64,000 nt of DNA, from NCBI RefSeq assembly GCF_001598055.1, contig NZ_CP014845.1:62001-126000 (forward strand). Direction: 5' to 3'. This document shows positions 9,810 through 47,829 of this stretch, piece by piece. Position numbers and translations under genes: made by a program. The DNA is from Cupriavidus nantongensis (GTDB lineage: Bacteria > Pseudomonadota > Gammaproteobacteria > Burkholderiales > Burkholderiaceae). Within the stretch, counting starts at the first letter, position 1; each line of letters starts with the position of its first letter. The notes beneath the pieces are model-generated. The model saw only the letters and a list, made by a program, of their open reading frames with translations. It made no database searches and was not told the DNA's origin.

Positions 9810-9879
9810 GGGGGAAGTCTCCTGGGTAATTCCGATGGATGCGGTGAAGCGATGCGGTGGCGCTGCGGGCCGGCGTGCG

Positions 9880-10311
9880 TCAGGCGGCGCCGGTCAGCAG
9901 GTGTTTCTGGCTGGCCAGGCGCGCGGCCATGGCGGCGGCCAGCGCCTCCAGGCCGGAGCGGGGGCGCACCATGACCTCGAACTCGGCAATGCGGCCGGCG
10001 TCGTCGAAGCGGATCATGTCGATGCCCTTGAGCGCCTTGCCGTCCACGCTGGCACTGAACTCCAGCACCACGCTGTGGCCGTCGCCGCTGACGAAGCTGC
10101 GGTGGTAGCGGAAGTCCTGGAACACCTGGTTCACCGTGGTCAGCACCAGCGCGATGGCGGCGCGGCCGGGATACGGCGTATGCGCGACCGGCGAGCGGAA
10201 CACTACGTCGTCGGCGACGATGGCATCGAGCCCGGCCATGGAATGGGTGGCGATCATCTGGTGCCAGGCGTCGAGCGAGGCCTGGGCGGCGGGAAGCAGG
10301 GCGTTGGTCAC
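9880..10311 (-). CDS. NTF2/SnoaL-like protein
   Basis: A 143-aa single-domain protein of the NTF2-like fold (SnoaL-like): an N-terminal helix pair, then DAIVADDVVFRSPVAHTPYPGR, a central beta stretch (SVVLEFSASVDGKALKGID) and MIRFDDAGRIAEFEVMVRP. Members bind small hydrophobic ligands or act as isomerases. No catalytic residues can be assigned. It is probably cotranscribed with the flavoprotein gene downstream. Confidence 0.75.
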   Translation of the reverse strand: MTNALLPAAQASLDAWHQMIATHSMAGLDAIVADDVVFRSPVAHTPYPGRAAIALVLTTVNQVFQDFRYHRSFVSGDGHSVVLEFSASVDGKALKGIDMIRFDDAGRIAEFEVMVRPRSGLEALAAAMAARLASQKHLLTGAA

Positions 10312-10481
10312 GGGGTCTCCTGGACGGCGTCGGGGCGATCTCTGTCATGTTCTATGCAACCAGTTGCATAGTGAATCGAAAGGTAGCACGCGCCGCGGTT
10401 GGCCGCAAGTTCAGCGTACCCGGTCAGGCGCCCAGTGACGCGTTGTCTACAATAGGCGGGTTCGCTTCTCCCGGAGGGTCC

Positions 10482-32311: not shown

Positions 32312-32947
32312 ATGACCCCCACCCTGAGCAACGATTCCGCCGAACAACTGATCCTGCGCATCGGCAACCTGACGCGCATGCTGCGCGACAACATGCGCGA
32401 GCTCGGCCTGGACAAGGAAATCGAGCGCGCCGCGCAAGCCATCCCCGACGCGCGCGACCGCCTGAACTACATCGCCGCGATGACCGAGCAGGCCGCCGAA
32501 CGCACGCTCAACGCGGTCGAACTGGCGCAGCCGATCCAGTCCGACATCGAACAGCAAGCCGAAACGCTCGATAAGCGCTGGGCCGCCTGGTTTGAAAAGC
32601 CGGTGGAACTGGCCGACGCCCGCTCGCTGGTACTGGACACCCGCGCCTTCCTGTCCGAGGTACCCGGCCAGGCCCGCGCCACCAACAGCCACCTGCTCGA
32701 CATCATGATGGCGCAGGACTTCCAAGACCTGACCGGCCAGGTCATCAAGAAGATGATGGACATGATCCGCGCGCTGGAGCAGGAACTGCTGCAGGTGCTG
32801 ATCGACAACGTGCCGTCCGAGCGCCGCGTGGAAGTGCAGCAGCCGTCGACGCTGATGAATGGGCCGCAGGTGAATCCGGAAGGGAAGCCGGATGTGGTGT
32901 CGGACCAGGCGCAGGTGGATGATTTGTTGGCTAGTCTGGGGTTTTGA
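32312..32947 (+). CDS. cheZ: CheY-phosphate phosphatase CheZ
   Basis: A 211-aa CheZ, mostly a long helical hairpin. The catalytic region reads MAQDFQDLTGQVIKKMMDMI, in which the Gln of DLTGQ acts on phospho-CheY, and the C-terminal helix (QAQVDDLLASLGF) is the usual CheY-binding tail. It is the last gene of the mot-che run and is followed by a strong palindrome that may terminate transcription. In related genomes flhB usually follows; here an accessory island does. Confidence 0.95.
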   Translation: MTPTLSNDSAEQLILRIGNLTRMLRDNMRELGLDKEIERAAQAIPDARDRLNYIAAMTEQAAERTLNAVELAQPIQSDIEQQAETLDKRWAAWFEKPVELADARSLVLDTRAFLSEVPGQARATNSHLLDIMMAQDFQDLTGQVIKKMMDMIRALEQELLQVLIDNVPSERRVEVQQPSTLMNGPQVNPEGKPDVVSDQAQVDDLLASLGF

Positions 32948-32990
32948 GGGTTGATTAGCCTGCGGCATTTCGCGATGCCGCGTGTTTGCT

Positions 32991-33030
32991 CCCCTCTCCC
33001 GCTTGCGGGAGAGGGGCGGGGGAGAGGGCC
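32991..33030. repeat. REP-like palindromic repeat
   Basis: A perfect 26-base palindrome (32991-33016; centre CCCGCTTGCGGG with flanking CTCT/AGAG) followed by a GGGGGAGAGGG tail. The same unit recurs several times at 55555-57180. It lies 44 bases after cheZ and may double as its terminator. Confidence 0.8.
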
Positions 33031-33159
33031 GGCGCATCCACGAAGCCAACCGCATCAACACCTGCGCACCCACTCCATCCCGGCAATCCGGCGATGAACG
33101 TTTTAAGAGTTTGCCCATACTCGCGCTTGCTGCCCCTCTTCATACTGGGTTCGTCGCTG

Positions 33160-33330
33160 CGTCGTGGCGACCGGGTTTAGCAGCCCGAAAAGAGAGAGCC
33201 GAACGTTCGTCTTCTGGCGGTATCCTTACGTTCGCCGCGCCTGCGCACGCCCCTTCTTTGGGCGGGCCCTGGCAGGGGAGCCTTCGGGCTCGCCGGCTTT
33301 TGGCTCTTTCTCCGGTCTGCTAACCCTGCC
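33160..33330 (+). ncRNA. candidate structured RNA element (C4/P4-immunity-RNA-like)
   Basis: The segment GGGTTTAGCAGCCC at 33173-33186 is nearly complementary to GGTCTGCTAACCC at 33314-33326, giving a long-range stem that encloses about 127 bases with further local hairpins (for example around CCTTCGGGCTCGCCGG near 33280). This pattern recalls, from memory, the C4-type antisense RNAs and ash-linked elements of phages and islands. No covariance search was possible, and coding by one of the open frames is not excluded. Confidence 0.4.
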
Positions 33331-33495
33331 TTGCGCCCGCCCACCCCTATCAACACCCGGGGAGCGGGACTGAACCTGTATGGTTAGGGGGCATTCCTAT
33401 GCTTCAGTTCTTACTTGCCCATTCTGGGCGATTGGCTATCTCCAGTACCTTCACGATGCAGCAGCGCGCGCGGGACGCGTATGTGGAGGTGTGCC

Positions 33496-33786
33496 ATGTA
33501 TAGCCATAGTCATCACGGTATTACGGCGGAACACAATGGTGTCGACATGCTCGTCACCGCTCACACCCCTGGCGAGAATCCGTTGAGTCTTGCGGTGCAA
33601 CGGGCGGCGCAGCTTCATGGGCTATTGCTTATGGCTAGTGAGCATGGGGCTGTTAGTTTGGAGGCGGCGGATTTGGAGCAGGGGGTTTGGGAGGGTTTGC
33701 TTTCCCTTGCGGCTACGCTGGCGCATGAGACGCTGGTGTTGAGTGAGTTGGCGGTGGTGGAGGGGCAGGGGGTGGAGGTTGAGTGA
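33496..33786 (+). CDS. small hypothetical protein
   Basis: A 96-aa soluble protein starting MYSHSHHGITAEHNGVDMLV. A GGAGG ribosome site lies 6 bases before the ATG. The second half is a run of hydrophobic and acidic helices (LAVQRAAQLHGLLLMASEHG, LLSLAATLAHETLVLSEL). The GC content and codon use drop toward its end, where the island begins. No function is suggested. Confidence 0.6.
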   Translation: MYSHSHHGITAEHNGVDMLVTAHTPGENPLSLAVQRAAQLHGLLLMASEHGAVSLEAADLEQGVWEGLLSLAATLAHETLVLSELAVVEGQGVEVE

Positions 33787-34815
33787 AATTAGGCGGGTCG
33801 TGCAGCCGTGTAGTCGGCTGCCGCCCAATCTTGGAAGCAATCTGAGCGTCGCGGGCCGACCCGCTGCTGTTATTGGGCTCCGGCCCGCTGCGCCGTCGGT
33901 TCCCGCAGTACAGCGATCATTCAACGCCTCGTCACACGTCGCAAATCCGCTTGCGATTGTCTTTTCAATCCTTTTGGCATAGCACGGATTGACGGGGCCG
34001 GCTCATCTGTATGGCACGGTCGCCTGTGCAGTGCACCACGTGATCAGAGTTGTTTACTCCTCAAGAATCAAACACTATTCCTAGTGACGTGAGGCGAATC
34101 GTGTAGCCGTTCTTCAAGTGAATCTTTAATAATCTTTTGAGAGGCGATTTGCCGGCTGACAGATCATCCGCATCATGAGCGGAGACGCAGCAGATGCGGG
34201 GAAGAGCCTCCCAAACGCTGCAACAATACGGAACAGAGTTCCGCCGCTCGCAACTGATTTCGGCGGAAAAAACATGAAACCCAACGGGCCGGCGCGAAGC
34301 GGTGGCAGCCCTGACTGTGCGGCAGGCTCAGCAACGCAAGCATGTCGTTAGCCCAGGCGCAGTTGGCGATGGCGTGACTTTTATGAGATCAAGCGGGCGG
34401 AGAAGGACGTGGCGAGCGCCTGGTACCGGCATCGTCAGGGTGTCGCGCGTTGGCTATCGTCGGCGGTCGCGGTGGCTGACGATAAGGTAATCACGTGTGC
34501 GGGGATCTAGCGCGCCCTGAAACCAGCCATCGTGACGGCGCCCCTGTCGACGCTGTTGCGGCAGCGATATTCGGAGACCCCCGACGGCGAACTGCTGATG
34601 AATTGCTGAAGGAGGAGTGTTCCAGGGCAGCGACGAGGGCAAGGTGCTCATCGAGCGCGGGATCCATTTCTACTAGAACTGATCGGCTACAAAATTTCGT
34701 ACCGCAGCGCCAACGTATCTTTGGCGAAAATGCGAAGGCACCCCTCGTTCGTCGGCTGGACAAGGGTGCCCGATATGTATATCTTTATATGAATCACAAA
34801 AGGCCGGCGCAGCCA
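33787..34815. other. gene-poor left part of the island
   Basis: About 1 kb without a convincing gene. The base composition becomes mixed: AT-rich pieces (34030-34150) alternate with GC-rich ones. Short open frames lack ribosome sites and look like debris of older insertions. The AT-rich stretch 34765-34790 could hold the promoter of the next operon. Confidence 0.5.
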
Positions 34816-35499
34816 ATGACACTCGAAGACATCAAGGCATTCCTGGACTGGAAAACCCCGCTTTTCGACAAGGGCGTTGTTGTCAAAGCAGGTCAGATAC
34901 AGCGGCACGATGGCGCACAGATTTCATTCGAAATACAGGCTGGTTGGGATTTGGGTAAAGCTCACTGGTGTGATAAGAACTGGGGTGTCTTCAATCTTCA
35001 ACTTTTGAAGTTCATCAAAGAAAAAGATTACTCTGCCAAAGAGAGAGCGGAAGTACTGGAGTCGATCCAAATCGATGATAGCCACTGGGAGTGGCTGAAA
35101 AAGGCCTTAGCCTATCGGACGTCCGAGTATGTCTGGTTATTTCTTATGGCCGATGACGCTCCTCAAGGTGCGTGTCTAATCTACCACCCGAAGAAGAGTG
35201 AACTAGAGCCTGGAGACATCTTCTACATCGAATACATCGCGTCGGCACCTTGGAATCGTAAGAACCCAATGTCGCCCCGCCGCTTCGGCGGTATCGGAAG
35301 TCTTCTGATTAAGGCTGCGATGGCATACGCCACCGACGAGTTGAAGCTTCGCCAGGGTTTCTCGTTGCATGCGCTACCGCGTGCCGTACCGTTTTATGAG
35401 CAGATCGGAATGAAGCCTTTCGCCGCTTTGGACAAGGCGAGGCTAAAGTATTTCGAGATGCCACAGGAAACAGCTACTCAGTTTGAGGTGGGTCAGTGA
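34816..35499 (+). CDS. GNAT-fold N-acetyltransferase-like protein, first gene of a putative defence operon
   Basis: About 227 aa from the ATG at 34816; an in-frame ATG at 34789 (236 aa) is the alternative, and neither has a strong ribosome site. The C-terminal half has a GNAT acetyl-CoA-binding pattern: the strand FYIEYIASAPWNRKN, then R-x-x-G-x-G in RRFGGIGSLLIKAAMAYA, and the terminal ALPRAVPFYEQIGMKPF. The N-terminal half is unassigned. Codon use is less GC-biased than in the flagellar genes. Its stop overlaps the start of the metallopeptidase gene, so the two are translationally coupled. The target of acetylation, if any, is unknown. Confidence 0.7.
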   Translation: MTLEDIKAFLDWKTPLFDKGVVVKAGQIQRHDGAQISFEIQAGWDLGKAHWCDKNWGVFNLQLLKFIKEKDYSAKERAEVLESIQIDDSHWEWLKKALAYRTSEYVWLFLMADDAPQGACLIYHPKKSELEPGDIFYIEYIASAPWNRKNPMSPRRFGGIGSLLIKAAMAYATDELKLRQGFSLHALPRAVPFYEQIGMKPFAALDKARLKYFEMPQETATQFEVGQ

Positions 35500-36350
35500 C
35501 GGCAGATCAATTCGACGACTTCCCTGTCAGTTCCGCAGGCACCGCCGACGCAAAAGACCTTTACGAGTCGTTTTTGGAATTTGAGATTTTGCTAGCGCAA
35601 GTTCCAAAAAAACACTTAGGAGAAAATCCCAGGCTCGCAGAGTACGACTTTTTTCGCGAGGTGCACACAGCACGCTCGGCTAAAGGCGCGCTTTATCGCA
35701 GGCGATCTGACGCAAGCGAAGCGCTTGGTCGATTGTGGCTTTCGAGAATCCGCCAGCAGGCCCAGCTGCTTGTAGCGTCAACAGAACTCGTCCCGTTTAA
35801 CGGACTTTCCGCGATTGAGTTGAACGAGATTGCCCGGCTCTGTGTCGACCCCAAAGAGGTTTTCTCGTTGCAGCAGTTACTGTTGAACAAGGGAATCGTG
35901 CTGATCTATGAAGCCTCGATTCCAGGTATGAAGCTCGATGGCGCAGTTTTTTGTCTTGACGACGGACGTCCTGTCGTAGGGCTCAGTCTCCGGTATCCTC
36001 GATTCGACATCTTTTGGTTCACATTGATGCATGAATTGGCTCACATCGTACTTCATCGCGAGATGTTGATGGACCCCATCCTAGAGGATTTGGATGCCGC
36101 ACCGGAAGGATTGATCGAGGAGCAAGCCGACCGCCTTGCTGGAGACTCGCTTATTAGTCGTAGTGATTGGCGTAGCGCCAATGTAAAGTATTCGCCAACA
36201 GAAGAGAACCTGTTTGAATTTGCGCGGCGTGTCGGTGTACACCCCGCTATTGTCGCCGGGCGGCTGCAACGCGAGTCTTCGAGAAAGAATATGTTCGCGA
36301 CAGTACTTAATGAAGTGAATATTCGAAGGATGCTTTTTGGTCATGAATAA
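35496..36350 (+). CDS. ImmA/IrrE-type metallopeptidase
   Basis: A 284-aa protein with a GTG start overlapping the preceding stop by four bases. The zinc motif H-E-x-x-H is at residues 179-183 (MHELAHIVLH), preceded by FDIFWFTLMHE and followed by EEQADRLAGD, whose Glu residues (208/209) supply the third ligand. This is the ImmA/IrrE pattern. In mobile elements and the DNA-damage response such proteases cleave regulatory proteins. There is no helix-turn-helix, so a separate substrate is expected. The N-terminal ~110 residues are charged and helical. It overlaps the next gene by 8 bases, giving a tight three-gene operon. Confidence 0.82.
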   Translation: MTADQFDDFPVSSAGTADAKDLYESFLEFEILLAQVPKKHLGENPRLAEYDFFREVHTARSAKGALYRRRSDASEALGRLWLSRIRQQAQLLVASTELVPFNGLSAIELNEIARLCVDPKEVFSLQQLLLNKGIVLIYEASIPGMKLDGAVFCLDDGRPVVGLSLRYPRFDIFWFTLMHELAHIVLHREMLMDPILEDLDAAPEGLIEEQADRLAGDSLISRSDWRSANVKYSPTEENLFEFARRVGVHPAIVAGRLQRESSRKNMFATVLNEVNIRRMLFGHE

Positions 36351-37413
36351 CTACGTTCCATTTCTCAAACTGAAAACAGGTGAGATTGGTGCCCTGTCGA
36401 CCTTGGATGGAGCGATCAAGTCTTCTATCGTCCCCTTCATTGATTTGCCTAAAAAAGACGGAATGACGGCGGATGGGTTCAAGGGCATGGTTGATAGGGG
36501 GGCGAAGAGTATTGCGAAGCATCTCAAGCAGTTTCCGATGTTCTTTCTGGATAACTTCGACATCGACGACTCGCTGTTGGTAGATGGTCAGCACAATTAT
36601 AATTACGTTCTGAAATCGCTCGGGCACCTTAATTTTGCGCCCGTCGTGGGCCTTGATCGCGCAACAGGAAGAAACGAAGCAGTTTTTAAGGCAAAAGAAG
36701 CGGGGAAATTGATTGCTACGACAATTTCTCTCCGTCTGCAACCAGACGATTTCGAGAACTACGCATTAGTTGCCCACGAAATTGATCAATTACTAAAACG
36801 TGGGAACGGATTATTTACGCATTGGATTCTCGTTCTCGACAACCGCGTTTGCACGGCGGTGGGCCCGGTGAAGCGCGCTAATGTGCTGGCAAAATTCATC
36901 CACGATTCCTCCGCTGCAGCAAAGTTCTCCGCGATCATTGTGACAGGCTCCTCAATACCGCCGTCGATCAGCGATGTGACTAGAGTACTAACCGAGCATG
37001 ATCACCCGCGCGTGGAGATAGCGATCTATCGGGCATTGCGTAAGCAACTGGGAGGTTCAAAGCTATTCTGCGGGGATTATACGATTGTTAGTCCGTTGTA
37101 TTCGGATGTTAAGCTCGCACCAGAGGTAATGTATAACGTCATGACCGCGAAAGTGGTTTATTCGCATGGCGATATACATTATATTGCGCGCGGGGGCGCA
37201 CTCAAAACTCATCCACGCGGTAATTTGCAGTACAACGATATTTTTGCGCAACTTGCCACCAAAACATTCTACCGCCAGCCCTCATTTTCGTTTGGCGATC
37301 AATTCATTTGGGATAGGACTGTTTCTACAGGGGTGATGGTGACGCCAGCCAGTGTGTTAAAACCGACCATAAACGCGCATATGAGCTATATGTTTAAGAG
37401 TTTCTCGGCGTAG
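36343..37413 (+). CDS. Beta-family protein (phage T4 beta-protein-like)
   Basis: A 356-aa protein starting MNNYVPFLKLKTGEIGALST, the form typical of the Beta protein family (a TIM-barrel-like family named after a phage T4 protein and seen repeatedly in accessory islands). Further family-like segments are VPFIDLPKK, GLFTHWILVLDN and the C-terminal KVVYSHGDIHYIARGG and DQFIWDR. No biochemical function is established. Its ATG lies inside the end of the metallopeptidase gene. Its 3' end overlaps, tail to tail, the nuclease gene by 28 bases, an arrangement that links the two physically. Low GC for this genome suggests transfer. Confidence 0.75.
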   Translation: MNNYVPFLKLKTGEIGALSTLDGAIKSSIVPFIDLPKKDGMTADGFKGMVDRGAKSIAKHLKQFPMFFLDNFDIDDSLLVDGQHNYNYVLKSLGHLNFAPVVGLDRATGRNEAVFKAKEAGKLIATTISLRLQPDDFENYALVAHEIDQLLKRGNGLFTHWILVLDNRVCTAVGPVKRANVLAKFIHDSSAAAKFSAIIVTGSSIPPSISDVTRVLTEHDHPRVEIAIYRALRKQLGGSKLFCGDYTIVSPLYSDVKLAPEVMYNVMTAKVVYSHGDIHYIARGGALKTHPRGNLQYNDIFAQLATKTFYRQPSFSFGDQFIWDRTVSTGVMVTPASVLKPTINAHMSYMFKSFSA

Positions 37414-37964
37414 CTGGATCGGTCTACGAGTCGATCGCCAATTTGTTCACACAGCATTCCTCGACCCACATTAAGGGCAATGAAATCTGTCAACTGGGCG
37501 CGAGTGAGCTTATCCAATTTCTTAGGTGAAATCGGTAGCGCGACTTTAAGTAGCTCCGATTTCCACAGCGTCATTAGCGCCACACGCGTGTCATAAAGTG
37601 GATTCCGACTTGCGTTCCGTACATATCTGATCGCTACGCTTCCCCGTGATTGAGACGCGATCATAATTCCCCAGTGTCTAGGCGCTAGGTGCAACGCGTT
37701 GTCGAGATGGCGATCAGTTGTGACTAGGGTGATTCGGCGGAAAGCTAAATCGTAAAATTGACGCTGAACGAGGATTCGACGCACCGCATCCGTATCGCCC
37801 TTTATTTCATAGCAGTGAGCGTATTTGAGAATCGCCACAACGTCTGCGATTGCGTTACCGTTGTGCACACGCAATTCTTCGATAATTGCCTTCGGTTTGT
37901 TCGATAGGGACGCAAGCCTTGCGATCAAAAACTTGCGAATCGTCTTGTCGTCGAGATTCATCAT
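37386..37964 (-). CDS. sce7726-family protein, PD-(D/E)xK nuclease-like
   Basis: A 192-aa minus-strand protein. The segment IIEELRVHNGNAIADVVAIL followed by CYEIKGDTD matches the PD-(D/E)xK nuclease core: E30, D41 and the E53-x-K55 pair; then VTTDRHLDNALHLAPRHWGI gives the later strand. This pattern is that of the sce7726 family, often found beside Beta/sce7725-type genes. The gene converges with and overlaps the Beta gene by 28 bases. An ATG at 37964 and a second at 37961 are both possible. The role as a DNA- or RNA-cutting effector is inferred. Confidence 0.72.
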   Translation of the reverse strand: MMNLDDKTIRKFLIARLASLSNKPKAIIEELRVHNGNAIADVVAILKYAHCYEIKGDTDAVRRILVQRQFYDLAFRRITLVTTDRHLDNALHLAPRHWGIMIASQSRGSVAIRYVRNASRNPLYDTRVALMTLWKSELLKVALPISPKKLDKLTRAQLTDFIALNVGRGMLCEQIGDRLVDRSSYAEKLLNI

Positions 37965-38883
37965 TTCAACGGTGGTCGGTATTCATATTTAAGCAGAAAT
38001 GTCGTCGCGGCGTGGTTCAGCCCGACAATGAGGCGACCCCAATTTCAACGCCACGCACCTATGACGAATGATACAGGGGTTGGCTCTTTTCACACGTCCT
38101 TCCGCCTTTTTCACTTCGGAACCACTAGCTGGGGAGCTTGACGGCGCGGCTCCTCGTCTCTCTTGAGCCTGTTCTGGACAATCCCTCCGATCTTCCTTTT
38201 CGGAGCGGAGCTGGTGAGCGGTATGCGCTCATCGACGCTATCAGCGGCTTTGCCAGATTCTTCGCGCTTTGACCAGTTGGGATGTCGCGCAGCTGCTCCA
38301 GCGATTTTACGTTTGCGGTAAATTGTCTCGTGGCTAGTGCCGCCCTGGCCGCAATACTGGCCGCAGTGTTGCCAGACGGTTGGGTGGGTATGGCGCCTCC
38401 CGGGCGGCCATAAGCGCGCGCTATCCCTTTGGCTCTGAGCTCTCGAGCGCCGCTTCCCAGGACATAACGGCAGCGCGACTAGGATTTGGTGGTGGGCAGC
38501 CGTCCAAGATCGGCCATCTACTGACCGCCGCGTCGCTCAACACGTCTCAAAGCCGAGGAAGGCTCCGATGTCGTTTGTGTCACCAACTTCAGACTGAGCG
38601 CTGCCTGCGCACGTGCAGCGCTGGCTGAATCCTTACCTTCACAGTCTGGCTGCTCGTTACGAGATCCCCGATGATTGGCAAGATCCGCACTACGAGCACC
38701 GCTTAGCGGCTTGAGTGCAGATGGCCGATAGGCGCACACGTAGGAAAAGGGCATAATGCGGAGGTGCTTGGGGGAGCTATGCGGGTCAGTTTCGGGTATG
38801 CGTCCTGTGCTTTAAAACGCAAATGTTGCTTCGGCAGCAGTCCAAGGTCTGACTCCAACGCTTCTCCCATGCACACTTCCCCC
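37965..38883. other. gene-poor stretch with decayed coding sequence
   Basis: No intact gene is convincing. A minus-strand frame ending at 38111 stays open for about 290 bases and reads Lys/Arg-rich residues (SHETIYRKRKIAGAAARHPN), but it has no start or ribosome site, so it is probably the end of a lost gene. The remainder shows short mutually inconsistent frames. Confidence 0.5.
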
Positions 38884-39561
38884 TTACCGCCTTCTTGCGA
38901 TCTCGTAGATCGAGTAGAGGGTACGGTTGACCAGCGGACTGAATGGACCGTCTGATTGCGCAGGTCTTGTCTCCGTGCACTCAATGATCACTCGAACCAC
39001 TGCCTCCTGTCGCTCGTAGAAGGTCACCCGTGCTGTCACAGCTTCGTAGTACCGCGCCCACTTGGTTCCATTTGGGAGGGTCTTCTCCTGCGTGTTGTTC
39101 AGCCGCTTCGGGATAAGGCTAGAGGATCGCTCCAACATCATGCTAGCCACGGAGAGAAGCAACAGGGATTGAAACATGGTCTGCTTGGGGCGGCCGATAC
39201 GCGTCATGTGACGCCATCCTCTGTTAGTAACCTGAGCAATGAAGTCCCTGGGATGTGCCTTGCTATGCGCCATCCAATCGGCATAGAAGCCACGGCACCT
39301 GTCGTGGAAGTTCCCCGAGAGCGCTTGCATTTGTAGGGGAGTGTGATCCTTGGACCATTGGATTCTACCCGGGGCCGTCAAGGTCGGAAGTTTGCGCAAT
39401 TCCGCCCAACGCCAGCAAAGGTTGTAGAGACCGCCTTTACCTTGCCCATCAAACTTGCGTTTCACGTCGAATTTGACGCAGCCCGGCGTAGCACAGGTTT
39501 GTGGATCTCTCAAGTCGGCCCAATATGCTACCGGATCCTTCTTGGTAATCCGCGTGTGAAT
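38884..39561 (-). pseudogene. DUF4365-type gene, 3' part separated by IS21-family insertion
   Basis: The C-terminal part of a gene split by the insertion sequence at 39561-42950. The frame reads through the junction (ITKKDPVAYWADLRDPQTC) and continues for about 225 codons, with a possible zinc-binding CATPGC...C segment and the end IYEIARRR. Joining it to 42951-43285 with one copy of the 5-base duplication removed gives exactly 1008 bases, one open frame of 335 aa. The joined sequence IMIH/TRITKKDPVAYWADL is what a DUF4365 domain looks like at this point. Alone, a TTG at 39513 might allow translation, but without the N-terminal domain function is unlikely. Confidence 0.75.
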
Positions 39562-39828
39562 GGCTGTCTAAAACCGGCACTAAACGGCGGCGCGGCTTAA
39601 AGATGCGGAGCAACTCCTGCATTGCAGGATTGTCTCGAGGTCTTCTGATTCGATATTGAAGGTGGCCACCGGGCGCGTCGGAGCGAGCCCGTAGGGCGAG
39701 TGCAGACGCGCCCGGTGATGGGCATTCCGCAAGGTGGTGACGTCGCAGTGGGGATGCGGTAAAAAGGTTGGCTTTACCGCCGAAAAGAAACAGGCACGAC
39801 ACCGGTCCAAACCGCCAAGTTCATCCCG

Positions 39829-40368
39829 ATGTCGTGCCCCACTCGTGCCAAGGGCGCGCGTGCCGAGCCAGTATGGCACGGCTCGTCCATCCCGTCGAGG
39901 CCGTTTCGGCATGACTGGGGGATCGCCGATGCCGGCCACGGGCCGCCTCTTTGTGTGCGCCCATGGCGGGCGCAGGTCGTTGTTTGCCGCCGCTGCGACC
40001 GCGGTCAGATCTACTGCAATGGCGGCTGCTCGCAAGCAGCGCGTCGCGCCAGCCTGCGCGAGGCCGCTCAGCGCTATCAACGCAGCCGCCGCGGCCGCTT
40101 GGCGCACGCGGAGCGGATGCGCCGCTACCGCTGTCGCCAAAAGAAAGTGACGCATCAGGGTTCCGCCGCGCAGGCCGCCGATGCTCTACTGCCGCTGACC
40201 TTGACGACGCCGGCCAGAGCACCGGCGCCCGCTGGCGCCTCAACACCGGTGCCTGAGCATTGCCACTTCTGCCGTTGCACATATTCGGGCTTTGTCCGCC
40301 TCGGACCACTGCGTCGTCGGGTCTTCCGTGATGTTCGTACGACTGACCGCACAGGACACGACCCATGA
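39829..40368 (+). CDS. IS21-associated zinc-motif protein of unknown function
   Basis: A 179-aa basic protein whose middle has a double-cysteine motif ([15 protein letters not shown]) followed by an Arg-rich helical stretch ([20 protein letters not shown] and [18 protein letters not shown]). A C-terminal CHFCRC pair may be a second metal site. Similar proteins are remembered as sitting directly before istA in several beta-proteobacterial IS21 elements. Its stop overlaps the istA start (ATGA), so the two are translationally coupled. A nucleic-acid-binding or transposition-modulating role is possible but unproven. The N-terminal ~45 residues may not all be translated. Confidence 0.65.
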
Positions 40369-41867
40369 CCATTGGAGTAGAACTTGAAGCCCAGATCCTG
40401 CGTTACTACCACGTCGAGAAATGGCGCGCCGGCACCATCGCGCGCCAGTTGCATGTGCACCGCGACACCGTCCAGCGTGTGCTGGCGCAGGCCGGCCTGC
40501 CCAGGATTGGCAGCGTGCAGCGGCCGTCGCAGATCGACGCCTACCTGCCATTCATCCATGAGACGTTGAAGAAGTTCCCGTCGCTCACGGCCAGCCGCCT
40601 GTATGCGATGGTGACCGAACGCGGCTACCGCGGGAGCCAGCACCACTTCCGGCACATGATCGCGCTGCACCGGCCGCGCCCACAGCCGGAAGCCTATCTG
40701 CGTCTGCGTACCTTGCCGGGCGAACAAGGGCAAGTCGATTGGGGTCACTTCGGCCATCTGCAGATCGGCCGCGCACGCCGGCCGCTGATGGCCTTCGTGA
40801 TGGTGCTGTCATGGTCGCGGCAGATCTATCTGCGCTTCTACCTTGATGCACGCATGGACAGCTTCCTGGCCGGCCATGCCGGTGCCTTCGAAGCCTGGTC
40901 CGGCCTTCCCAGGGTCCTGCTCTACGACAACCTGAAGAGTGCCGTGCTGGAACGCCAGGGCGATGCGATCCGTTTCCATCCGACACTGCTCGCGTTCGCG
41001 GCGCATCACCGCTACGAGCCCCGGCCGGTTGCCGTCGCCCGTGGCAACGAGAAGGGGCGCGTCGAGCGCGCCATCCGCTATGTACGCGAGAGCTTCTTCG
41101 CCGGACGCACCGTGACCGACCTCGATGAGCTCAACGCCCAAGCCGCCCATTGGTGTGCGGGACTTGCGGCCGATCGTCCCTGCCGGGAAGAACCGACGAT
41201 CAGCGTACGCGAGGCGTTCTCCCGCGAGCAGCCCAGCCTGCTCGCCTTGCCGGAGAATCCCTATCCATGCGAACTGCAACTGGCTGTCAAGGTCGGCAAG
41301 ACACCGTATGTGCGCTTCGATCTGAATGACTACACGATCCCGCATACGCATGTGCGACGCACGCTCACGGTGCGGGCCAGTCCCCGGCAGGTACGCATCC
41401 TCGATGGCACGGAACTGCTCGCCACTCATGAGCGCAGTTACGATCGCGGCGCGCAGATAGAGATTGCCGCGCACATCAATGCCTTGGTCGAACGCAAACG
41501 CGAAGCCCGCCACCATCGCGGACTTGACCATCTGGCTCGGGCGGCGCCGGCCAGCCAGGCGCTGCTGCAGCGCGCAGCGGAACGGGGCGGCAATCTGGGC
41601 AACATCACCACCCACCTGCTGCGGCTGCTCGACCGCTATGGCGCCGCTGAATTGCAAGCGGCGATCGAGGAAATCCTCGCCAGCGATGCGGCGCCTCACC
41701 AGAATCCGGTGCGCCTGGCGCTGGAGCGCCGGCGCGAGGCGCGCCAGGCACCGCCGCCCGTGGGTATCCATCTACCTGAACACGTCCGGCACAAGGACAA
41801 GCTGGTGATACCCCACCGCCTCGACATCTACGATCAGCTCACGGGAGATGCCAATGAACACGCCTGA
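40365..41867 (+). CDS. istA: IS21-family transposase IstA
   Basis: A 500-aa DDE transposase. An N-terminal helix-turn-helix ([20 protein letters not shown]) is followed by the catalytic core with D ([13 protein letters not shown]), D ([12 protein letters not shown]) and E ([14 protein letters not shown]). The C-terminal beta domain ([16 protein letters not shown]) and Arg-rich tail are typical. It overlaps the upstream zinc-motif gene by four bases and istB by fourteen. It seems intact. Confidence 0.95.
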
Positions 41868-42621
41868 GAACCTGCAAAGCCGTGCGAACGCCTTGCGCCT
41901 GCATGGGCTACTGGCACACTGGCCGGAGGTCGCCGACGCCGGCTGGGTGGCGCCGCTGCTGCAATGGGAAGAAGAGGAGCGCTCGCGCCGCTCGCTGGAG
42001 CGACGCATCCGGGATGCCCGACTGGGCAACTTCAAGCCCTTGTGCGACTTCGACTGGGCCTGGCCGACGCGCTGCGACCGGGCCGCCGTCGAAGAATTGA
42101 TGTCGCTGGAGTTCGTCAAGGACTCGGCCAACGTCGTGCTGATCGGCCCGAACGGCGTCGGCAAATCGACCCTGGCGCTGAATCTGGCCTATCAGGCGCT
42201 CGTCCAAGGGCACACAGCGCTGTTCACCACCGCCGGCCAGATGCTCGGCGAGCTGGCCGCCCTCGACAGCGATTCGGCCTTGCGTCGACGCCTGCACCGC
42301 TATGCCTCGCCGGACGTTCTGGTCATCGACGAGGTCGGCTACCTGTCGTACTCGAACCGACATGCCGATCTGCTGTTCGAGCTCATCAGTCGCCGATATG
42401 GCGCCACCAGTACGGTGGTTACAACAAACAGACCATTCGCCGAATGGTCGGAGGTGTTCCCGAACGCCGCCTGCGTCGTCTCGCTGGTTGACCGACTGGT
42501 GCATCGTGCCGAAGTCATCGCGATCGAGGGCGAGTCGTATCGCGTCAAGGAAGCGCGTGAGCGGGCCGATCAGCGAGCAAAGAAACGCAGCGTGGCCCGG
42601 GCGGAGAAAAAGCCATCATGA
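41854..42621 (+). CDS. istB: IS21-family helper ATPase IstB
   Basis: A 255-aa AAA+ ATPase that, with IstA, selects the target. Walker A is [14 protein letters not shown], Walker B is [12 protein letters not shown], and the sensor/arginine region [13 protein letters not shown] follows. The ATG at 41854 has GGGAG six bases upstream; an earlier ATG at 41848 would add two residues. It seems intact. Confidence 0.95.
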
Positions 42622-42824
42622 CGCATCTGCACCTGCCTTCAGGAATCACCAACGGGCTGGACTTCCTGATCCCAGACAACTGGTCCCCAGAACAGGCCCT
42701 CGCCGTCGTCGAACTCATCGACGATCTACGCGAGCGAATCTGCGCGCACTACCAGCTCGCACTGCATGACCTGCTGCGTGAGCAGCGCTCGCCCCCCGAG
42801 AAAAGCCTCGACGATCCGTTCTAG
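42618..42824 (+). CDS. small IS21-associated hypothetical protein
   Basis: A 68-aa acidic protein ([20 protein letters not shown], ending SLDDPF) whose start overlaps the istB stop (ATGA). It is mostly helical. Its coupled position before a strong terminator shows that it belongs to the element. Similar short proteins are remembered after istB in related elements; the role is unknown. Confidence 0.7.
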   Translation: MTHLHLPSGITNGLDFLIPDNWSPEQALAVVELIDDLRERICAHYQLALHDLLREQRSPPEKSLDDPF

Positions 42825-42842
42825 CCTGCACCATCCAACCCA

Positions 42843-42876
42843 AACAGCAAGGGGCCGCATGCGGCCCCTTGCTGTT
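42843..42876 (+). terminator. perfect palindrome terminating the IS21 operon
   Basis: A perfect 34-base palindrome with 17-base arms centred on GCATGC (outer bases AACAGCAAGG / CCTTGCTGTT). It lies 18 bases after the last gene of the element and is still inside it. The short T-run is weak, but the hairpin is very strong. Confidence 0.75.
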
Positions 42877-42950
42877 GACCTTCTGACCCAACCATACGCC
42901 GCCATTTACTGTCGCTTTTACACCGCCGTCAACACCGCGGAGGCGTCACA

Positions 42951-43285
42951 TGAATCATGATCACGGGACCAGGCATTGAGAGCCAGCGAGGGAAGTGTGC
43001 TTCGTTATGCTTACGACCCAGACTCAAGTTGTACGTGCCGGTCACTGGCGGCATCGACTTTCGGTATCCGGTTTTGATCTGAGCGAAGATCACGTCGCCC
43101 GTCGGACCAGCGTAACCACCCGTCTTTTCGCTGCGCTTGAGGAAGATAAGAACATCGATGCTGTTGTCATTGTGGGCGGAGACCACTTCGACTCCGCAGC
43201 CCCACAGCCCCTCCACAATCCATGTGACCCAACTGACTCCGATTTGACCCGTATGGGTCGTGTCATGGTTCTTTCTCTTCTTCAT
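42951..43285 (-). pseudogene. DUF4365-type gene, 5' part separated by IS21-family insertion
   Basis: The N-terminal part of the split gene. From an ATG at 43285 it reads MKKRKNHDTTHTGQIGVSWV, then DNSIDVLIFLKRSEKTGG and VIFAQIKTGYRKS, and stops making sense after PGPVIMIH at the element junction (five foreign residues, then a stop). The TGQIGVxWV start, the D...AQIKTG nuclease-like core and the hydrophobic PVIMIH strand match DUF4365 domains, which are related to restriction-type nucleases and common in defence islands. The 3' part is at 38884-39561. An upstream in-frame start at 43360 is possible. Confidence 0.75.
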
Positions 43286-43395
43286 CGTCCGTGTCCATAG
43301 CAACTTGATGATTGCACGGCCGGTGGGCGCCTTGCTCGAGTATCTTGGAGCGATTGCCAAAACCGTCGCCTACCCAGCCTGAATGCACAGCGATC

Positions 43396-44358
43396 CTAAG
43401 GAAGCGTGATGCCAGCCACGGTCGCAGCTGCTTTGACGGCTGTGTATGCATCGGAGGTAGAGCCGAGCGTCTGCATTGTTGTGGCAATTCCACCAAGCAA
43501 GGACTTCAGCGAAAGCTTGTTCGGCTTTTGCTTTTCGGTTTCGGCAATGGTGGTCCGGACCAGCTCTTTCGCTTCCTCCCGCTCGTCCTCAGGAAGATTC
43601 GCCTTGGTGAGTTCAGCGAGAACTGCCTCAAGGGCGCTCTTCAAGCCGGCGAGTTGGCTCTGATCGGCGGACTGCTGGATGTGTGCCACCGAGTTGTCCC
43701 CGGTTTGAACCGCGCCCACGGGCGAATGAAAAATGTAAGTATTGCTTGCGGGTACAGGTGCGGGTGCCGGTCGGGATCGCTTCGTCATCATTTCGTCCTG
43801 CCAAGCATCAAATGCAAGTCCCCTGAAAAAGAGCGACACGCCGGAGCCACCTCTCTTATTGTGTTGTATGTACGACTTCTCGCTCAGATCGTCCACGACA
43901 TCAGAGAACTCTTGCCAATAGGTCTTCAACGACTCGCCAGCTGCCGTCTGAAAGGCTGTCATGACCTCATAGATTTGTAGCGATCGCGACGCCGGACGCG
44001 CATTCAACATGTTGAAAAGCAGCTTCCTGAGCTGAGTCCGTATTACATCGCTCGACCGGGTACGCTGCGCCGAATCGCCGCCAGGCTTCTCTTCAACAAT
44101 CAGGCCCCGTGCTAGATCCATTCTCGCGTTCAGACAATCCCTATTCGCAAGGTCGATCCAGCGACGAGCAACATATAGCTGATGATCAGCCAGTCCAGGG
44201 GCTTCATGAGAGTACTGGGGTTGGGCCGTGAAGACCGCTTCTTTCCAAGCAAGAAAGTTCGCCACCCCAGGAAACTTTGAATCCAGTTGCCAAATTGCCG
44301 CAGCGAGATCTCCTTGTCCGTCTGCCAATCCCTTGAACCCACTCAAATCACCGATCAT
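43396..44358 (-). CDS. hypothetical protein with C-terminal GxVQTGxNSxAHIQQ motif
   Basis: A 320-aa protein; the ATG at 44358 has GGAG eight bases upstream. The N-terminal ~190 residues are helical with many Trp and Arg (FLAWKEAVFTAQPQYSHEAP, ARRWIDLANRDC) and match nothing I recognise. After a Pro/Ala linker (RPAPAPVPA) comes VGAVQTGDNSVAHIQQSADQ, a glycine-turn motif seen at the start of C-terminal helical tails in various bacterial accessory proteins, followed by a charged coil and a hydrophobic end (AVKAAATVAGITL) that might contact membranes. It stands directly upstream of the broken DUF4365 gene in the same direction, so it may be part of the same former operon. Confidence 0.65.
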   Translation of the reverse strand: MIGDLSGFKGLADGQGDLAAAIWQLDSKFPGVANFLAWKEAVFTAQPQYSHEAPGLADHQLYVARRWIDLANRDCLNARMDLARGLIVEEKPGGDSAQRTRSSDVIRTQLRKLLFNMLNARPASRSLQIYEVMTAFQTAAGESLKTYWQEFSDVVDDLSEKSYIQHNKRGGSGVSLFFRGLAFDAWQDEMMTKRSRPAPAPVPASNTYIFHSPVGAVQTGDNSVAHIQQSADQSQLAGLKSALEAVLAELTKANLPEDEREEAKELVRTTIAETEKQKPNKLSLKSLLGGIATTMQTLGSTSDAYTAVKAAATVAGITLP

Positions 44359-45726
44359 AAGCAATCTCCAATTTATTCAATGCGGTCCAGCCGTCGTCAG
44401 TGTCCTTTCCGGACATGCTTGCAGTAGGCAATCCGCCCGATCCAGTATTCGGCCAACCTCTGCTTGCCGCCTAGGCCCGCGGAGAGACGCGCTAATTCTA
44501 TCAACAGGGTCTGGGTAACGACATCAATCGGAGGGCGTTCGCCAATCTCAATATGTGGCTGAGAAAGAGCGCAGTAGGTGCCCTACTCGTCTGCTACGTC
44601 CGCTGCCGAGCTCGGCAACAGCGACATAGCATCAAACTGCACGGCCAAGTTCAAGTGCATGCTGGCTGCCTCAGCCCTTTACTCCCAAAGGTCGGGACGG
44701 TCCGCCCAGTCCCGTATCATGCAGCGGCGCTACTCGACATACTCCGGCGTAGTCACCTGAATCGATCCTATTGGGCTAGGTACATTCCAAGCAATAGGAG
44801 GTGCTATTAAGTCTAACCAGCTACCTGGAGGAGGCTCAGGTTGAGACGACCAAACAGACCACACAGTCGGTCATCAGTCTCATCGGCTTGCAACTAACTG
44901 AGTCGCGTGGCTGAGCAGTTGTCGCATAAGTCGTTGATCGGCGACTGCCTCGTGTTGATCGCTGCGACCATTCGAATCTCTGCTTCGAATGACTCAGCTA
45001 AGCATGAAGCAGCCGCCCATGTGAAGCTGCTGACCGACTGCCTGATGTTTATGACGTTGCTTCAGCCCCAACTGCGGGCTTAGACCGAAGGCCAACTGAA
45101 GCCCTAGCAGAAGCCTGGGACTAATCACCATTTTGAAGTTCGCATCAAATGAGATCAGGCTTCGGTCGAACATTTTGTCAAAATTCGGCGTTAGCAACAA
45201 GCCGTTCGCCGGTGATATTCGCTGCCACCGTGTCACACAAGGTCCATAGGCGAATGTGCGAAGCAATCAGGAACTCAGTTGCCTTCGGCAGGGCCGTGGT
45301 CGAGCATTTACCATTCCAACGCTGAATCAGTTGCTCGCGGAATAGACCCTGACCGACACGTGATTTGATGACCGCCTCACGGACGGTTTCATCGAGGGTT
45401 TCCAAATACCGCTGCAGAGGCGGGTCGTTGCCGGGTTCAAGCTAAGCCGGGTCAAACTTCGGTGCCCCCCTGGGGCAGCGGGAGATTACGGTAGACGCGG
45501 TAAGCCTCAGTCATGCCGTCATATGAGTGGACCCACCAGTCATAGCCGGTTACTGCCGTCCGTTGTCCTTGCACTCTAGCCCTTTACGCGTCGCCGAACG
45601 ACTTGTATCACGACTTCTCACGGATTTTGAGAAGATTCGGCATCAGCGTTCGGCGTGTACGCGGCGCGGTCTCTTCGGTGATTTTCAAAAGCAGCAACCA
45701 GGGAGCATCTCGCTTCATAAAAGAAA
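44359..45726. other. gene-poor right part of the island
   Basis: About 1.4 kb with no intact gene. It includes the HNH-nuclease relic at 44994-45441. Elsewhere, for example 44800-45000, plus-strand words such as SYLEEAQVETTKQTTQS look protein-like but are broken by stops, consistent with decay of older accessory genes. Confidence 0.5.
44994..45441 (-). pseudogene. HNH endonuclease relic with frameshift
   Basis: Two minus-strand frames join to give an HNH-nuclease domain of the type used by modification-dependent and island-borne restriction enzymes. The first frame reads QGLFREQLIQRWNGKCSTTA and EFLIASHIRLW; the second, from about 45210, reads NGLLLTPNFDKMFDRSLISF. In intact members these are continuous (ASHI...W...NGLLL...D..FD..LISF). 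A stop precedes the first frame at about 45445 and the second frame loses its end, so the gene is dead. Confidence 0.7.
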
Positions 45727-45752
45727 AACGCCAACCCTCACGGGTTGGCGTT
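45727..45752 (-). terminator. rho-independent terminator of aceA
   Basis: Arms AACGCCAACCC and GGGTTGGCGTT with a 4-base loop, followed on the minus strand by a T-rich run. It lies 25 bases after the aceA stop. Confidence 0.88.
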
Positions 45753-45776
45753 CTACTTTAGGGTGCCCCACCAGAA

Positions 45777-47357
45777 TCAAAACTGATTCATAGTATTGTC
45801 CTTCCCCGCCGCCTTCAGTGCCGCTTCCCCGCTGAAGTACTCCTTGTGGTCATCCCCCATGTCTGATCCAGCCATATTCTGGTGCTTCACACAAGCGATG
45901 CCCTGACGAATTTCCTTCCGCTGCACACCAGCCACATAACCCAGCATCCCCTGGTCACCAAAGTATTCCTTAGCCAGGTTATCCGTCGACAGCGCAGCAG
46001 TGTGATACGTCGGCAGCGTAATCAGGTGATGGAAGATCCCCGCTTCACGCGACGCATCAGCCTGGAACGTACGAATCTTCTCGTCCGCCAGCTTCGCCAG
46101 TTCGCTGTCGTCATATTCCACGCTCATCAGCTGCGCGCGGTCATAGGCCGACACGTCCTTGCCCTCGGCCTTCATCGCGTCATAAGCCTGCTGGCGGAAA
46201 TTCAGGGTCCAGTTGAACGACGGGCTGTTGTTGTACACCAGCTTGGCGTTCGGGATGACCTTGCGGATTTCGTTGACCATGCCGGCGATCTGGGCGATGT
46301 GCGGCTTTTCGGTTTCGATCCACAGCAGGTCGGCGCCGTTCTGCAGCGCGGTGACGCAATCCAGCACGCAGCGTGCTTCGCCCGTGCCGGCGCGGAACTG
46401 GAACAGGTTGCTGGGCAGGCGCTTCGGGCGCAGCAGTTTGCCGTCGCGCTTGATGATGACGTCGCCATTGCCCAGTTGGTCGGCCGACAGTTCTTCGCAA
46501 TCCAGGAACGAGTTGTACTGGTCGCCCAGGTCGCCCGGCTGGCGGGTCACGGCGATCTGCTTGGTCAGGCCGGCGCCCAGCGAGTCGGTGCGGGCGACGA
46601 TGATGCCGTCGTCCACGCCCAGTTCCAGGAAGGCGTAGCGGATGGCGCGGATCTTGGCCAGGAAGTCTTCGTGCGGCACGGTGACCTTGCCGTCCTGGTG
46701 GCCGCATTGCTTCTCGTCGGAGACCTGGTTTTCGATCTGGATGCAGCAGGCGCCGGCTTCGATGAATTGCTTGGCCAGCAGGTAGGTCGCTTCGGCGTTG
46801 CCGAAACCGGCGTCGATGTCGGCGATGATGGGCACCACGTGGGTGACGTGGTTGTCGATCTTCTGCTGGATCGCGGCCTTTTCGGCGCCGGTGGCGGCGT
46901 CGAGTTGGCGGAACAGGCCGCCCAGTTCACGGGCGTCGGCCTGGCGCAGGAAGGTGTACAGCTCGCGGATCAGTGCGCTGACCGCGGTCTTCTCGTGCAT
47001 CGACTGGTCCGGCAGCGGGCCGAACTCGGAGCGCAGCGCGGCGACCATCCAGCCGGACAGGTACAGGTAGCGGCGTTCGGTGCTGTTGAAGTGCTTCTTG
47101 ATGGAAATCATCTTCTGCTGGCCGATAAAGCCGTGCCAGCAGCCCAGCGACTGGGTGTATTTGGACGGGTCCGCGTCATAGGCAGCCATGTCGGCGCGCA
47201 TGATCTTGGCGGTGTACTTGGCGATGTCCAGGCCCGTCTTGAACTTGTTCTGCGCGCGCATGCGGGCAGCGTACTCGGGGTTGATGGCATTCCAGGCGCT
47301 GCCCTGGGTTTCTTTCAAAGCAGCCACTGCCTTGATGTCGTCTTGATACTGGGCCAT
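45777..47357 (-). CDS. aceA: isocitrate lyase
   Basis: A 526-aa isocitrate lyase, which cleaves isocitrate to glyoxylate and succinate in the glyoxylate shunt for growth on acetate and fatty acids. The active-site cysteine lies in KQCGH (216-220, C218), with Gln where many members have a second Lys. IADIDAGFGNAEATYLLAK supplies metal ligands, and NNSPSFNW and the late ATG/AKP-like segments complete the site. At 526 residues it belongs to the long subclass known from Pseudomonas and related bacteria, not the ~430-aa enteric form. It has its own promoter region and terminator, and stands alone inside a flagellar cluster. Confidence 0.95.
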   Translation of the reverse strand: MAQYQDDIKAVAALKETQGSAWNAINPEYAARMRAQNKFKTGLDIAKYTAKIMRADMAAYDADPSKYTQSLGCWHGFIGQQKMISIKKHFNSTERRYLYLSGWMVAALRSEFGPLPDQSMHEKTAVSALIRELYTFLRQADARELGGLFRQLDAATGAEKAAIQQKIDNHVTHVVPIIADIDAGFGNAEATYLLAKQFIEAGACCIQIENQVSDEKQCGHQDGKVTVPHEDFLAKIRAIRYAFLELGVDDGIIVARTDSLGAGLTKQIAVTRQPGDLGDQYNSFLDCEELSADQLGNGDVIIKRDGKLLRPKRLPSNLFQFRAGTGEARCVLDCVTALQNGADLLWIETEKPHIAQIAGMVNEIRKVIPNAKLVYNNSPSFNWTLNFRQQAYDAMKAEGKDVSAYDRAQLMSVEYDDSELAKLADEKIRTFQADASREAGIFHHLITLPTYHTAALSTDNLAKEYFGDQGMLGYVAGVQRKEIRQGIACVKHQNMAGSDMGDDHKEYFSGEAALKAAGKDNTMNQF

Positions 47358-47467
47358 GTCAGTTTCCTAAGATAAGGCGCGTTTGAGAAAAATCGTTTGG
47401 CGTGCCGACCGTGGGTCGAAGCAAACAGCGTGAACTCATTGTAGGGGGATCCGGCGCCGTTGCGGCC

Positions 47468-47485
47468 ATGTCTTATATAAGACAT
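47468..47485. promoter_or_regulatory. perfect palindrome, candidate aceA operator
   Basis: ATGTCTTATATAAGACAT is a perfect 18-base palindrome about 111 bases before the aceA start, and part of it is repeated at once (ATAAGAC at 47484-47490). Such short AT-centred palindromes are typical of GntR- and similar regulators of central carbon genes; the factor is not identified. Confidence 0.6.
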
Positions 47486-47675
47486 AAGACTTTGTTTTTC
47501 CTTATTTTTCAATGAGATACGTGTCAATTTTCACGATACGGAACGTTTTTTCGCAGAACGAAAGCGGGCGCGGCGCAGCGCAACATCGAAATCCCACGAT
47601 GTGAAACGCGCTTTCAGTCAGCGGGCCAAGGCGGGTTCGGCGCATCGCATGCCGCCGGCTTCGTCACTTTTCCGC

Positions 47676-47703
47676 TAAAGACTCCCGCCGCGTCCGCCGT
47701 TAA
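47676..47703 (+). promoter_or_regulatory. sigma-28-like promoter before flhB
   Basis: TAAA at 47676-47679 and GCCGTTAA at 47696-47703 with a 16-base spacer, the same form as the site at 17535. It is 127 bases before flhB. Confidence 0.6.
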
Positions 47704-47829
47704 CCCCAACAGTCCCTCATTTCCCAAACAGCACCCAATTCCCCCGCCTTTTCGCGCGAATGGGAATCCCACCCCGCTTCGATAATCCCCGCTGACGAAT
47801 AGCGGCCTGCCGCTTCGCACGGAGCGTGG

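Follow-up and report, generated by a model that had tools for sequence, protein, structure and literature searches.

The four genes at positions 34816 to 37964 of the window (the whole stretch of 64,000 nucleotides analyzed here) form, as judged from their sequence relatives, one conserved and co-inherited unit, which carries homologues of parts of two anti-phage systems, PD-lambda-2 and gop-beta-cII. We lean toward the view that the locus is a mobile toxin-antitoxin-like module, probably acting against phages by abortive infection, and that it represents a GNAT-type variant of the PD-lambda-2/gop-beta-cII group.

The four genes and their surroundings

Three genes are read from the plus strand. 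The first (34816..35499, 227 amino acids) encodes a GNAT acetyltransferase in what we call slot A, and it is followed, with an overlap of 4 bases, by an ImmA/IrrE (M78) zinc peptidase gene (35496..36350, 284 amino acids), which in turn shares 8 bases with a Beta-family gene (36343..37413, 356 amino acids). The fourth, a sce7726/P4 cII-family gene, lies on the minus strand (37386..37964, 192 amino acids) and meets the Beta gene tail to tail, so that the 3' ends of both share 28 bases (37386..37413). A preliminary description of this DNA had given the same three overlaps, exact to the coordinate, and its four family calls were borne out: the peptidase matched PF06114 at 8e-11, above the cut-off, Beta matched PF14350 at 2e-44, and sce7726 matched NF033832 at 1.5e-38, while the GNAT call came from the modeled fold.

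By Pfam, the GNAT protein fell marginally below the cut-off (23.4 versus 23.6 bits). Its structure model (pLDDT of 91.9) had a GNAT fold with the acetyl-CoA loop and gave 145 PDB matches in Foldseek at E≤0.001, the 50 listed being nearly all acetyltransferases. There were 171 homologues at E≤0.001, and the start at 34816 fits the length of most relatives (ca. 225 to 232 residues). The active-site residues E148 and Y203, numbered as in P0001, which starts at 34789 and carries 9 extra residues, were invariant in the family alignment. The model resembled the fold of the translation-stopping TacT/AtaT toxins with Z values tied with those of ordinary GNATs; other GNATs occupied the top Foldseek ranks, and identity to TacT/AtaT-type toxins was 9 to 14%. 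P0001 had no PADLOC match at E≤1, and neither GNAT, sce7726, nor Beta had convincing sequence relatives in the PDB.

In the peptidase, the HELAH motif spans residues 179 to 183, and H179, E180, H183, and E208, the last being the presumed third zinc ligand, were kept in 28/28 aligned proteins. It matched the PADLOC model PD-Lambda-2_B at 1.6e-49 over profile positions 189 to 396 of 402. The N-terminal Xre domain is missing, and Pfam gave no match to any HTH family at E≤1; among PDB sequences, the matches were an HTH-type protein (9e-4) and CapP (0.07). Beta matched PADLOC PD-Lambda-2_C at 1.8e-39 and the PADLOC "beta" model only weakly (0.0084). Its predicted fold is a TIM barrel, a call based on VIA Z and the order of strands and helices; Foldseek gave no match to its model at E≤0.001.

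The sce7726 protein had no Pfam match in the window copy, some of its relatives had weak ones (MmcB-like in 3/31 and HSDR_N in 1/31), and it matched the PADLOC cII model ("cll") at 3e-14. It bears a PD-(D/E)xK-type signature (E30, D41, E53-x-K55, and Q67-xxx-Y/F). The four residues that had been named as those of a nuclease (E30, D41, E53, and K55) were, like Q67, invariant in 31/31 aligned proteins, with position 71 being Y in 26 and F in 5. A QxxxY stretch is a meaningful mark in RecB-like nucleases. We thus regard sce7726 as a putative PD-(D/E)xK-type nuclease, a fold assignment based on these invariant residues.

As previously described, the GC content of the module is lower than that of its surroundings (0.48 to 0.52 over 35 to 38 kb, versus 0.63 to 0.70 over 24 to 33 kb and 0.66 to 0.70 over 48 to 52 kb). 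The broken nuclease genes said to lie beside it do exist, namely, fragments of DUF4365 (42929-43360; 6e-7) and HNH_2 (44994-45266; 24/66 positions) genes, but "beside" was loose, since they are ca. 5 to 7 kb away on the far side of an IS21 element (40365-42621). No RHH family was found at E≤0.1 in six small open reading frames around the module. We also checked whether the insertion site belongs to a defense island: in a sister genome, the gap in which the window copy is inserted is occupied by Gabija, while the other genome tested at the same gap (G664, locus L066) had two open reading frames without a convincing defense match.

Recurrence and the exchange of slot A

The same four genes, in identical order and with the fourth convergent, were found in 24/25 close GNAT-family loci, many of them in unrelated genomes, the outcome that had been fixed beforehand as support for the preliminary description. 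Divergence was correlated among all four families (r, 0.84 to 0.93; L003, L005, L012, L017, and L022 left out). Together, these two results indicate that the genes are not neighbors by chance. Given that L003-L005 are apparently near copies, as are L011 and L012, the 24 loci represent fewer independent events, and the loci assigned to Asgard, Planctomycetota, and Verrucomicrobia are from metagenomic bins that may be misassigned. L003 was scored as Beta positive despite an interrupted frame: a stop at codon 140 cuts Beta, while the GNAT, ImmA, and sce7726 frames are intact, and Beta therefore seems not to be the sole restraint in the module. Among the close loci listed, only L018 and L019 had a separate HTH gene (by profile) directly before the GNAT gene; RHH-type genes preceded distant GNAT relatives only.

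Beta and sce7726 were both missing from six distant GNAT loci and from L022, which has a fragmentary GNAT match. In the distant loci, the peptidase was detected by its own profile (L061), by Pfam (L093, and weakly in L104), or by annotation only (L095); L062 had no Pfam match for it, and none was seen in L094. In a set of 398 genomes, Beta occurred in 13, sce7726 above the cut-off in 14, and both in 11 (Fisher P, 3e-17); in 11/11 of the latter, the two genes were adjacent and convergent, which argues that the pair belongs together. They overlapped in all 21 loci measured (range, 4 to 74 bases). The pair stood without an adjacent recognized peptidase in 4/11 genomes (L035, L049, L058, and L060) as well as in prophage Rac-SA53. 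In control genomes, each family was absent (Beta, 0/14; sce7726, 0/14).

In other loci, slot A is filled by HigB, DUF6932, or DUF4917 proteins, so the GNAT appears to be one of a number of interchangeable proteins and not a fixed sensor. More tentatively, Beta and the convergent sce7726 could be a general immune chassis for varied arming cassettes, with the window carrying a protease-gated tRNA-acetylating toxin plus a nuclease under the control of a TIM-barrel sensor. The cassettes of this possible chassis would be Gop, a small ImmA accompanied by another short gene, DUF6932 with Xre-ImmA, and the GNAT with a bare ImmA, while HigB and DUF4917 cassettes would join Beta without the nuclease.

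Possible mode of action

In our preferred reading of the locus as an abortive-infection module, the GNAT would be the growth-arresting effector, acetylating aminoacyl-tRNA in the manner of TacT/AtaT, and would be held in check by, or together with, the ImmA-type peptidase. The latter may act as the switch, perhaps sensing infection-derived single-stranded DNA as PprI/IrrE does. The predicted TIM barrel of Beta might serve as the third component, linking infection to release, and the convergently expressed sce7726 could add a nucleic-acid attack. Several observations count against this reading. In PD-lambda-2, the peptidase and not the slot A protein is toxic alone (PMC9519451); the toxin-like structural neighbors of the GNAT model tie with ordinary acetyltransferases and rank behind other GNATs; sce7726 is missing from 5/5 HigB-type loci examined, and L022 and the six distant GNAT loci (L061, L062, L093, L094, L095, and L104) lack both Beta and sce7726; and neither an RHH-type gene in the small open reading frames tested nor a convincing defense match in the G664 gap was found. 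No phage or toxicity test of a GNAT-type module was found.

It is possible, with a lower probability, that the module is the same but that the peptidase is the toxic component, the GNAT merely restraining or modifying it as the slot A protein of PD-lambda-2 does. The zinc-ligand residues kept in 28/28 peptidases and the PD-Lambda-2_B match are consistent with this, as are the open frames next to the truncated Beta of L003 and the report that component C of PD-lambda-2 is not needed for neutralization but is needed for defense (PMC9519451). However, the Xre domain of PD-lambda-2B is absent from the window peptidase, the GNAT active-site residues are invariant, and four unrelated slot A families (HigB, GNAT, DUF6932, and DUF4917) better suit a rotating effector than the inhibitor of a single peptidase. 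This last argument is weak, two of the four families being without known function.

A selfish addiction module that stabilizes mobile elements, with no real anti-phage role, seems unlikely to us. In its favor, two close GNAT loci (L020 and L021) lie within viral contigs, distant GNAT-HTH-ImmA units were found on plasmids, and Beta loci of other kinds were found on plasmids and prophages; toxin families such as HigB also occur in slot A. Yet none of 72,556 plasmid records had a match covering >80% of the GNAT (the 46 matching records held distant relatives only), the insertion gap is shared with Gabija in the sister genome, and both of the closest systems to have been studied give protection against phages (PMC9519451 and PMC9122126).

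We consider it improbable that, as the preliminary description proposed, the peptidase acts after infection by cutting Beta or a different restraint and so licenses sce7726 as the true effector, with the GNAT as sensor or modifier. The invariance of the nuclease residues (31/31) and the tight association of sce7726 with Beta (11 of 398 genomes, always adjacent and convergent) would fit such a scheme, but Beta and the peptidase occur without sce7726 in 5/5 HigB-type PD-lambda-2 loci, and no recognized peptidase adjoins the pair in L035, L049, L058, L060, or Rac-SA53. Finally, a chance assembly in a junk island, to which the IS21 element and gene fragments nearby might point, is refuted for practical purposes by the conserved order in 24/25 close loci and the correlated divergence.

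Comparison with known systems

RHH proteins are the usual antitoxins of GNAT toxins. The TacT/AtaT/KacT toxins have such a partner, whereas none was detected among the small open reading frames tested in the window, and the N terminus of the window GNAT is ca. 35 to 45 residues longer than the aligned stretch. The GNAT-RHH link has been described together with a proposed three-component COG2856-Xre toxin-antitoxin (Makarova et al. 2009; PMC2701414), and in PprI/IrrE-DdrO, a zinc peptidase cleaves a repressor (PMC10904395). The window module resembles both in that its zinc peptidase gene shares an operon with a gene of toxin type, repressor cleavage being proposed or shown there, but the module has no Xre target gene. 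The sce7726 gene also adjoins a partner in 3/14 genomes with sce7726 above the cut-off; this partner was sce7725 by profile in L074 and 61 to 63% identical to sce7725 in L076 and L077. In these pairs, unlike in the window, both genes are on the same strand. By hhalign, sce7725 gave a weak N-terminal profile match to Beta (probability, 2%; E, 0.022).

The closest relatives are PD-lambda-2 of E. coli (Vassallo et al. 2022; PMC9519451) and gop-beta-cII of satellite P4 (Rousset et al. 2022; PMC9122126), both reported to act against phages, PD-lambda-2 by abortive infection of, e.g., lambda-vir. As first suggested, the module probably has a defense role. Based on profile matches, the peptidase and Beta are homologous to PD-lambda-2 B and C and the convergent sce7726 is homologous to P4 cII. 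In PD-lambda-2, the Xre-peptidase is toxic by itself and the slot A protein rescues the cell, while component C, already related to the P4 antitoxin in that report, is required for defense and dispensable for neutralization (PMC9519451). The order of slot A, ImmA/IrrE peptidase, and Beta, with ends close or overlapping, is the same as in the window. However, slot A is HigB-like there, the peptidase is fused to an Xre HTH, and the convergent sce7726 was absent from all five HigB-type loci examined, so the nuclease is not required in that branch.

In gop-beta-cII, a Beta gene likewise faces a convergent sce7726/cII gene (P4 cII versus NF033832, 2.5e-44), but gop is replaced in the window by two genes, those for the GNAT and the peptidase. 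The PADLOC gop model had no match at E≤1 in any window protein (P4 Gop itself, 4.8e-70), the Beta protein of P4 is a distant relative (profile E, 4.6e-6), and P4 beta and cII are separated by a 27-base gap instead of overlapping. We rejected the idea that P4 Gop is an unrecognized ImmA peptidase, as it had no M78 match and only weak Pfam hits (E, 0.026 to 0.045). By eye, its sequence is that of a short protein with hydrophobic stretches.

Plain membership of either system was also rejected, because the module lacks a defining feature of each. The module is thus not the new arrangement that it had been taken for, two of its parts being PD-lambda-2 homologues and the Beta and convergent cII pair being that of P4; what is new with respect to both systems is the GNAT in slot A, the HTH-less peptidase, and their combination with cII. 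Among the literature matches listed from an open-access PMC search, no paper naming the four-gene set was found, which does not prove its absence. Neither these matches nor the passages of the reports used here gave a biochemical role for Beta or cII, and the module offers a ready test of their function. Since the GNAT has no PADLOC match, a rule that calls for a HigB-like protein in slot A would probably not recognize the module. PD-lambda-2 and gop-beta-cII were reported separately. A fixed unit that combines homologues of components from each joins the two systems in a single family whose slot A is exchangeable.

The four-gene unit and its recurrence

The preliminary description of this locus, three overlapping plus-strand genes meeting a convergent nuclease gene, held for genes, strands and overlaps as well as for the gene families called. 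Within 34816 to 37964, genes for a GNAT protein (34816 to 35499), an ImmA/IrrE peptidase (35496 to 36350) and a Beta protein (36343 to 37413), all on the plus strand, are followed by an sce7726 gene on the minus strand (37386 to 37964), with successive overlaps of 4, 8 and 28 bases. Between 35 and 38 kb of the window, GC content falls to 0.48 to 0.52.

A scan based on GNAT alignment yielded 18 loci from genome contigs and 3 from viral contigs. All four genes were found in identical order, the fourth convergent, in 20 of these 21 loci (counting L003, whose Beta frame is cut), and the sole exception (L022) had a fragmentary GNAT match. Recurrence of the gene set in other genomes had been set beforehand as a test; with L056, L102, L103 and the window added, the complete unit was present in 24 of the 25 loci close by GNAT kinship. 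The Beta and sce7726 genes overlapped at their 3' ends in all 21 loci measured (span, 4 to 74 bases), and distance matrices built for each of the four proteins across 20 loci were correlated (r, 0.84 to 0.93), with 0 of 2,000 permutations as high. The L003 Beta gene (9528 to 10592) has an in-frame stop at codon 140, with GNAT, ImmA and sce7726 open; loss of Beta may be tolerated, or this may be a sequencing error. Immediately 5' of GNAT, two loci carry a separate Xre-type HTH gene (L018, 6158 to 6583; L019, 1246 to 1611), as if supplying from another gene the HTH absent from the peptidase.

A variable site between cheZ and flhB

The cheZ-flhB gap (32947 to 47830 in the window) is a variable site within the genus. 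Both genes lay on one contig in 16 of 19 same-genus genomes, including this one, at intervals of 0.27 to 14.9 kb. Gabija occupies the gap in the sister genome G328 (CheZ and FlhB 99% identical), and PADLOC, applied to just one other gap, that of G664 (two ORFs), showed no convincing defense gene there; for five further gaps (L067 to L070 and L073), ORFs were listed only. GNAT occurred in 3 of 60 same-genus genomes, this one included, and the other two copies were far more distant, yet complete in all four genes. This sparse occurrence and the distant copies fit horizontal gain. An IS21-type istA/istB pair (40365 to 42621, both frames open) separates the module from DUF4365 and HNH fragments. 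Adjoining the DUF4365 fragment, a 322-aa minus-strand ORF (43396 to 44364) weakly matched the candidate PADLOC model PDC-M14B (residues 212 to 315; 1.4e-8).

Beta, sce7726 and GNAT with other partners

Among 398 genomes surveyed, Beta was detected in 13 and sce7726 above the cutoff in 14 (weaker matches in five more). Both occurred in 11 genomes (Fisher P, 3e-17), always adjacent and convergent, and in 4 of these 11 (L035, L049, L058 and L060) no peptidase was recognized beside them. The remaining 3 of the 14 sce7726 genes had sce7725 as same-strand neighbor. Upstream of Beta, we found HigB plus Xre-ImmA (L051), DUF6932 plus Xre-ImmA (L025 and L050), DUF4917 plus Xre-ImmA (L055), Gop (satellite P4), or no recognized partner (L023, L027, L035, L049, L058 and L060). 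In L052, L053, L054, L057 and L059, another short gene, in several cases with a hydrophobic start (by eye), precedes a small ImmA/IrrE gene (165 to 186 aa) immediately 5' of Beta; these two may encode a membrane protein resembling Gop and a peptidase. The sce7726 gene is missing from L054 and L055. In L074, L076 and L077, sce7725 occupies the position of Beta in a one-strand set of sce7726, sce7725 and a further gene whose start is cysteine-rich (134 to 143 aa visible; it extends past the fetched stretch in all three).

Neither Beta nor sce7726 was found at six distant GNAT loci (L061, L062, L093, L094, L095 and L104). A small RHH_1-matching gene precedes GNAT in all of them except L094 (above the cutoff in L061, L062 and L095; below it in L093 and L104). 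These five carry a peptidase-type gene 3' of GNAT, which profile or annotation identifies as ImmA in L061, L093 and L095 and, weakly, in L104. Such RHH-GNAT-(HTH)-ImmA-type sets (L093, 3605 to 5845; L095, 3669 to 5943; also L061, L062 and L104) seem to represent an earlier version of the pairing of GNAT with a peptidase; on plasmids L093 and L095, according to their annotation, multiubiquitin, ThiF and DUF6527 genes lie next to them. On a Nostoc plasmid (L094, 3896 to 6355), the GNAT relative is followed by an uncharacterized gene and an AIPR gene (PF10592, 1.2e-49), named for abortive infection phage resistance.

Probable function and known relatives

The module is real and conserved, its homology, gene order, co-inheritance and conserved residues being established at the sequence level, and its function is probably defense. 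GNAT would cause growth arrest, with the peptidase as a putative switch, Beta coupling infection to release and sce7726 perhaps contributing nucleic acid attack; the trigger might be single-stranded DNA, by analogy to PprI (PMC10904395). The preliminary description's model, in which the protease licenses the nuclease, is a hypothesis. We favor GNAT as the effector because the HigB toxin family shares its slot (A) in the anti-phage system PD-lambda-2, because RHH-type genes lie beside its distant relatives, and because of its fold. Our confidence is only moderate, since the PD-lambda-2 experiment of Vassallo et al. 2022 (PMC9519451) points to the opposite, the peptidase (slot B).

The window peptidase and Beta matched the PADLOC models PD-Lambda-2_B (1.6e-49) and PD-Lambda-2_C (1.8e-39), and sce7726 matched cII (3e-14), while GNAT had no PADLOC match at an E value of ≤1. 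PD-lambda-2 B has an HTH half, whereas the window peptidase lacks it, since its match begins at profile position 189 of 402. Five HigB-type PD-lambda-2 loci (four in E. coli) were without sce7726. A SIR2-family gene lies downstream in 2 of the 4 E. coli loci viewed, immediately in L105 (5530 to 7047) and after two other genes in L107 (7807 to 9061). The P4 record carries gop, beta and then a gene annotated sce7726, convergent with beta as sce7726 is with Beta in the window. According to Rousset et al. 2022 (PMC9122126), gop-beta-cII protects against lambda and P1, and gop and beta are a likely toxin-antitoxin pair. The module is not a new category: as the PADLOC matches and the survey of Beta loci and their partners indicate, it joins PD-lambda-2 slots B and C, a fourth gene shared with gop-beta-cII and a slot A enzyme unmatched by any PADLOC model.
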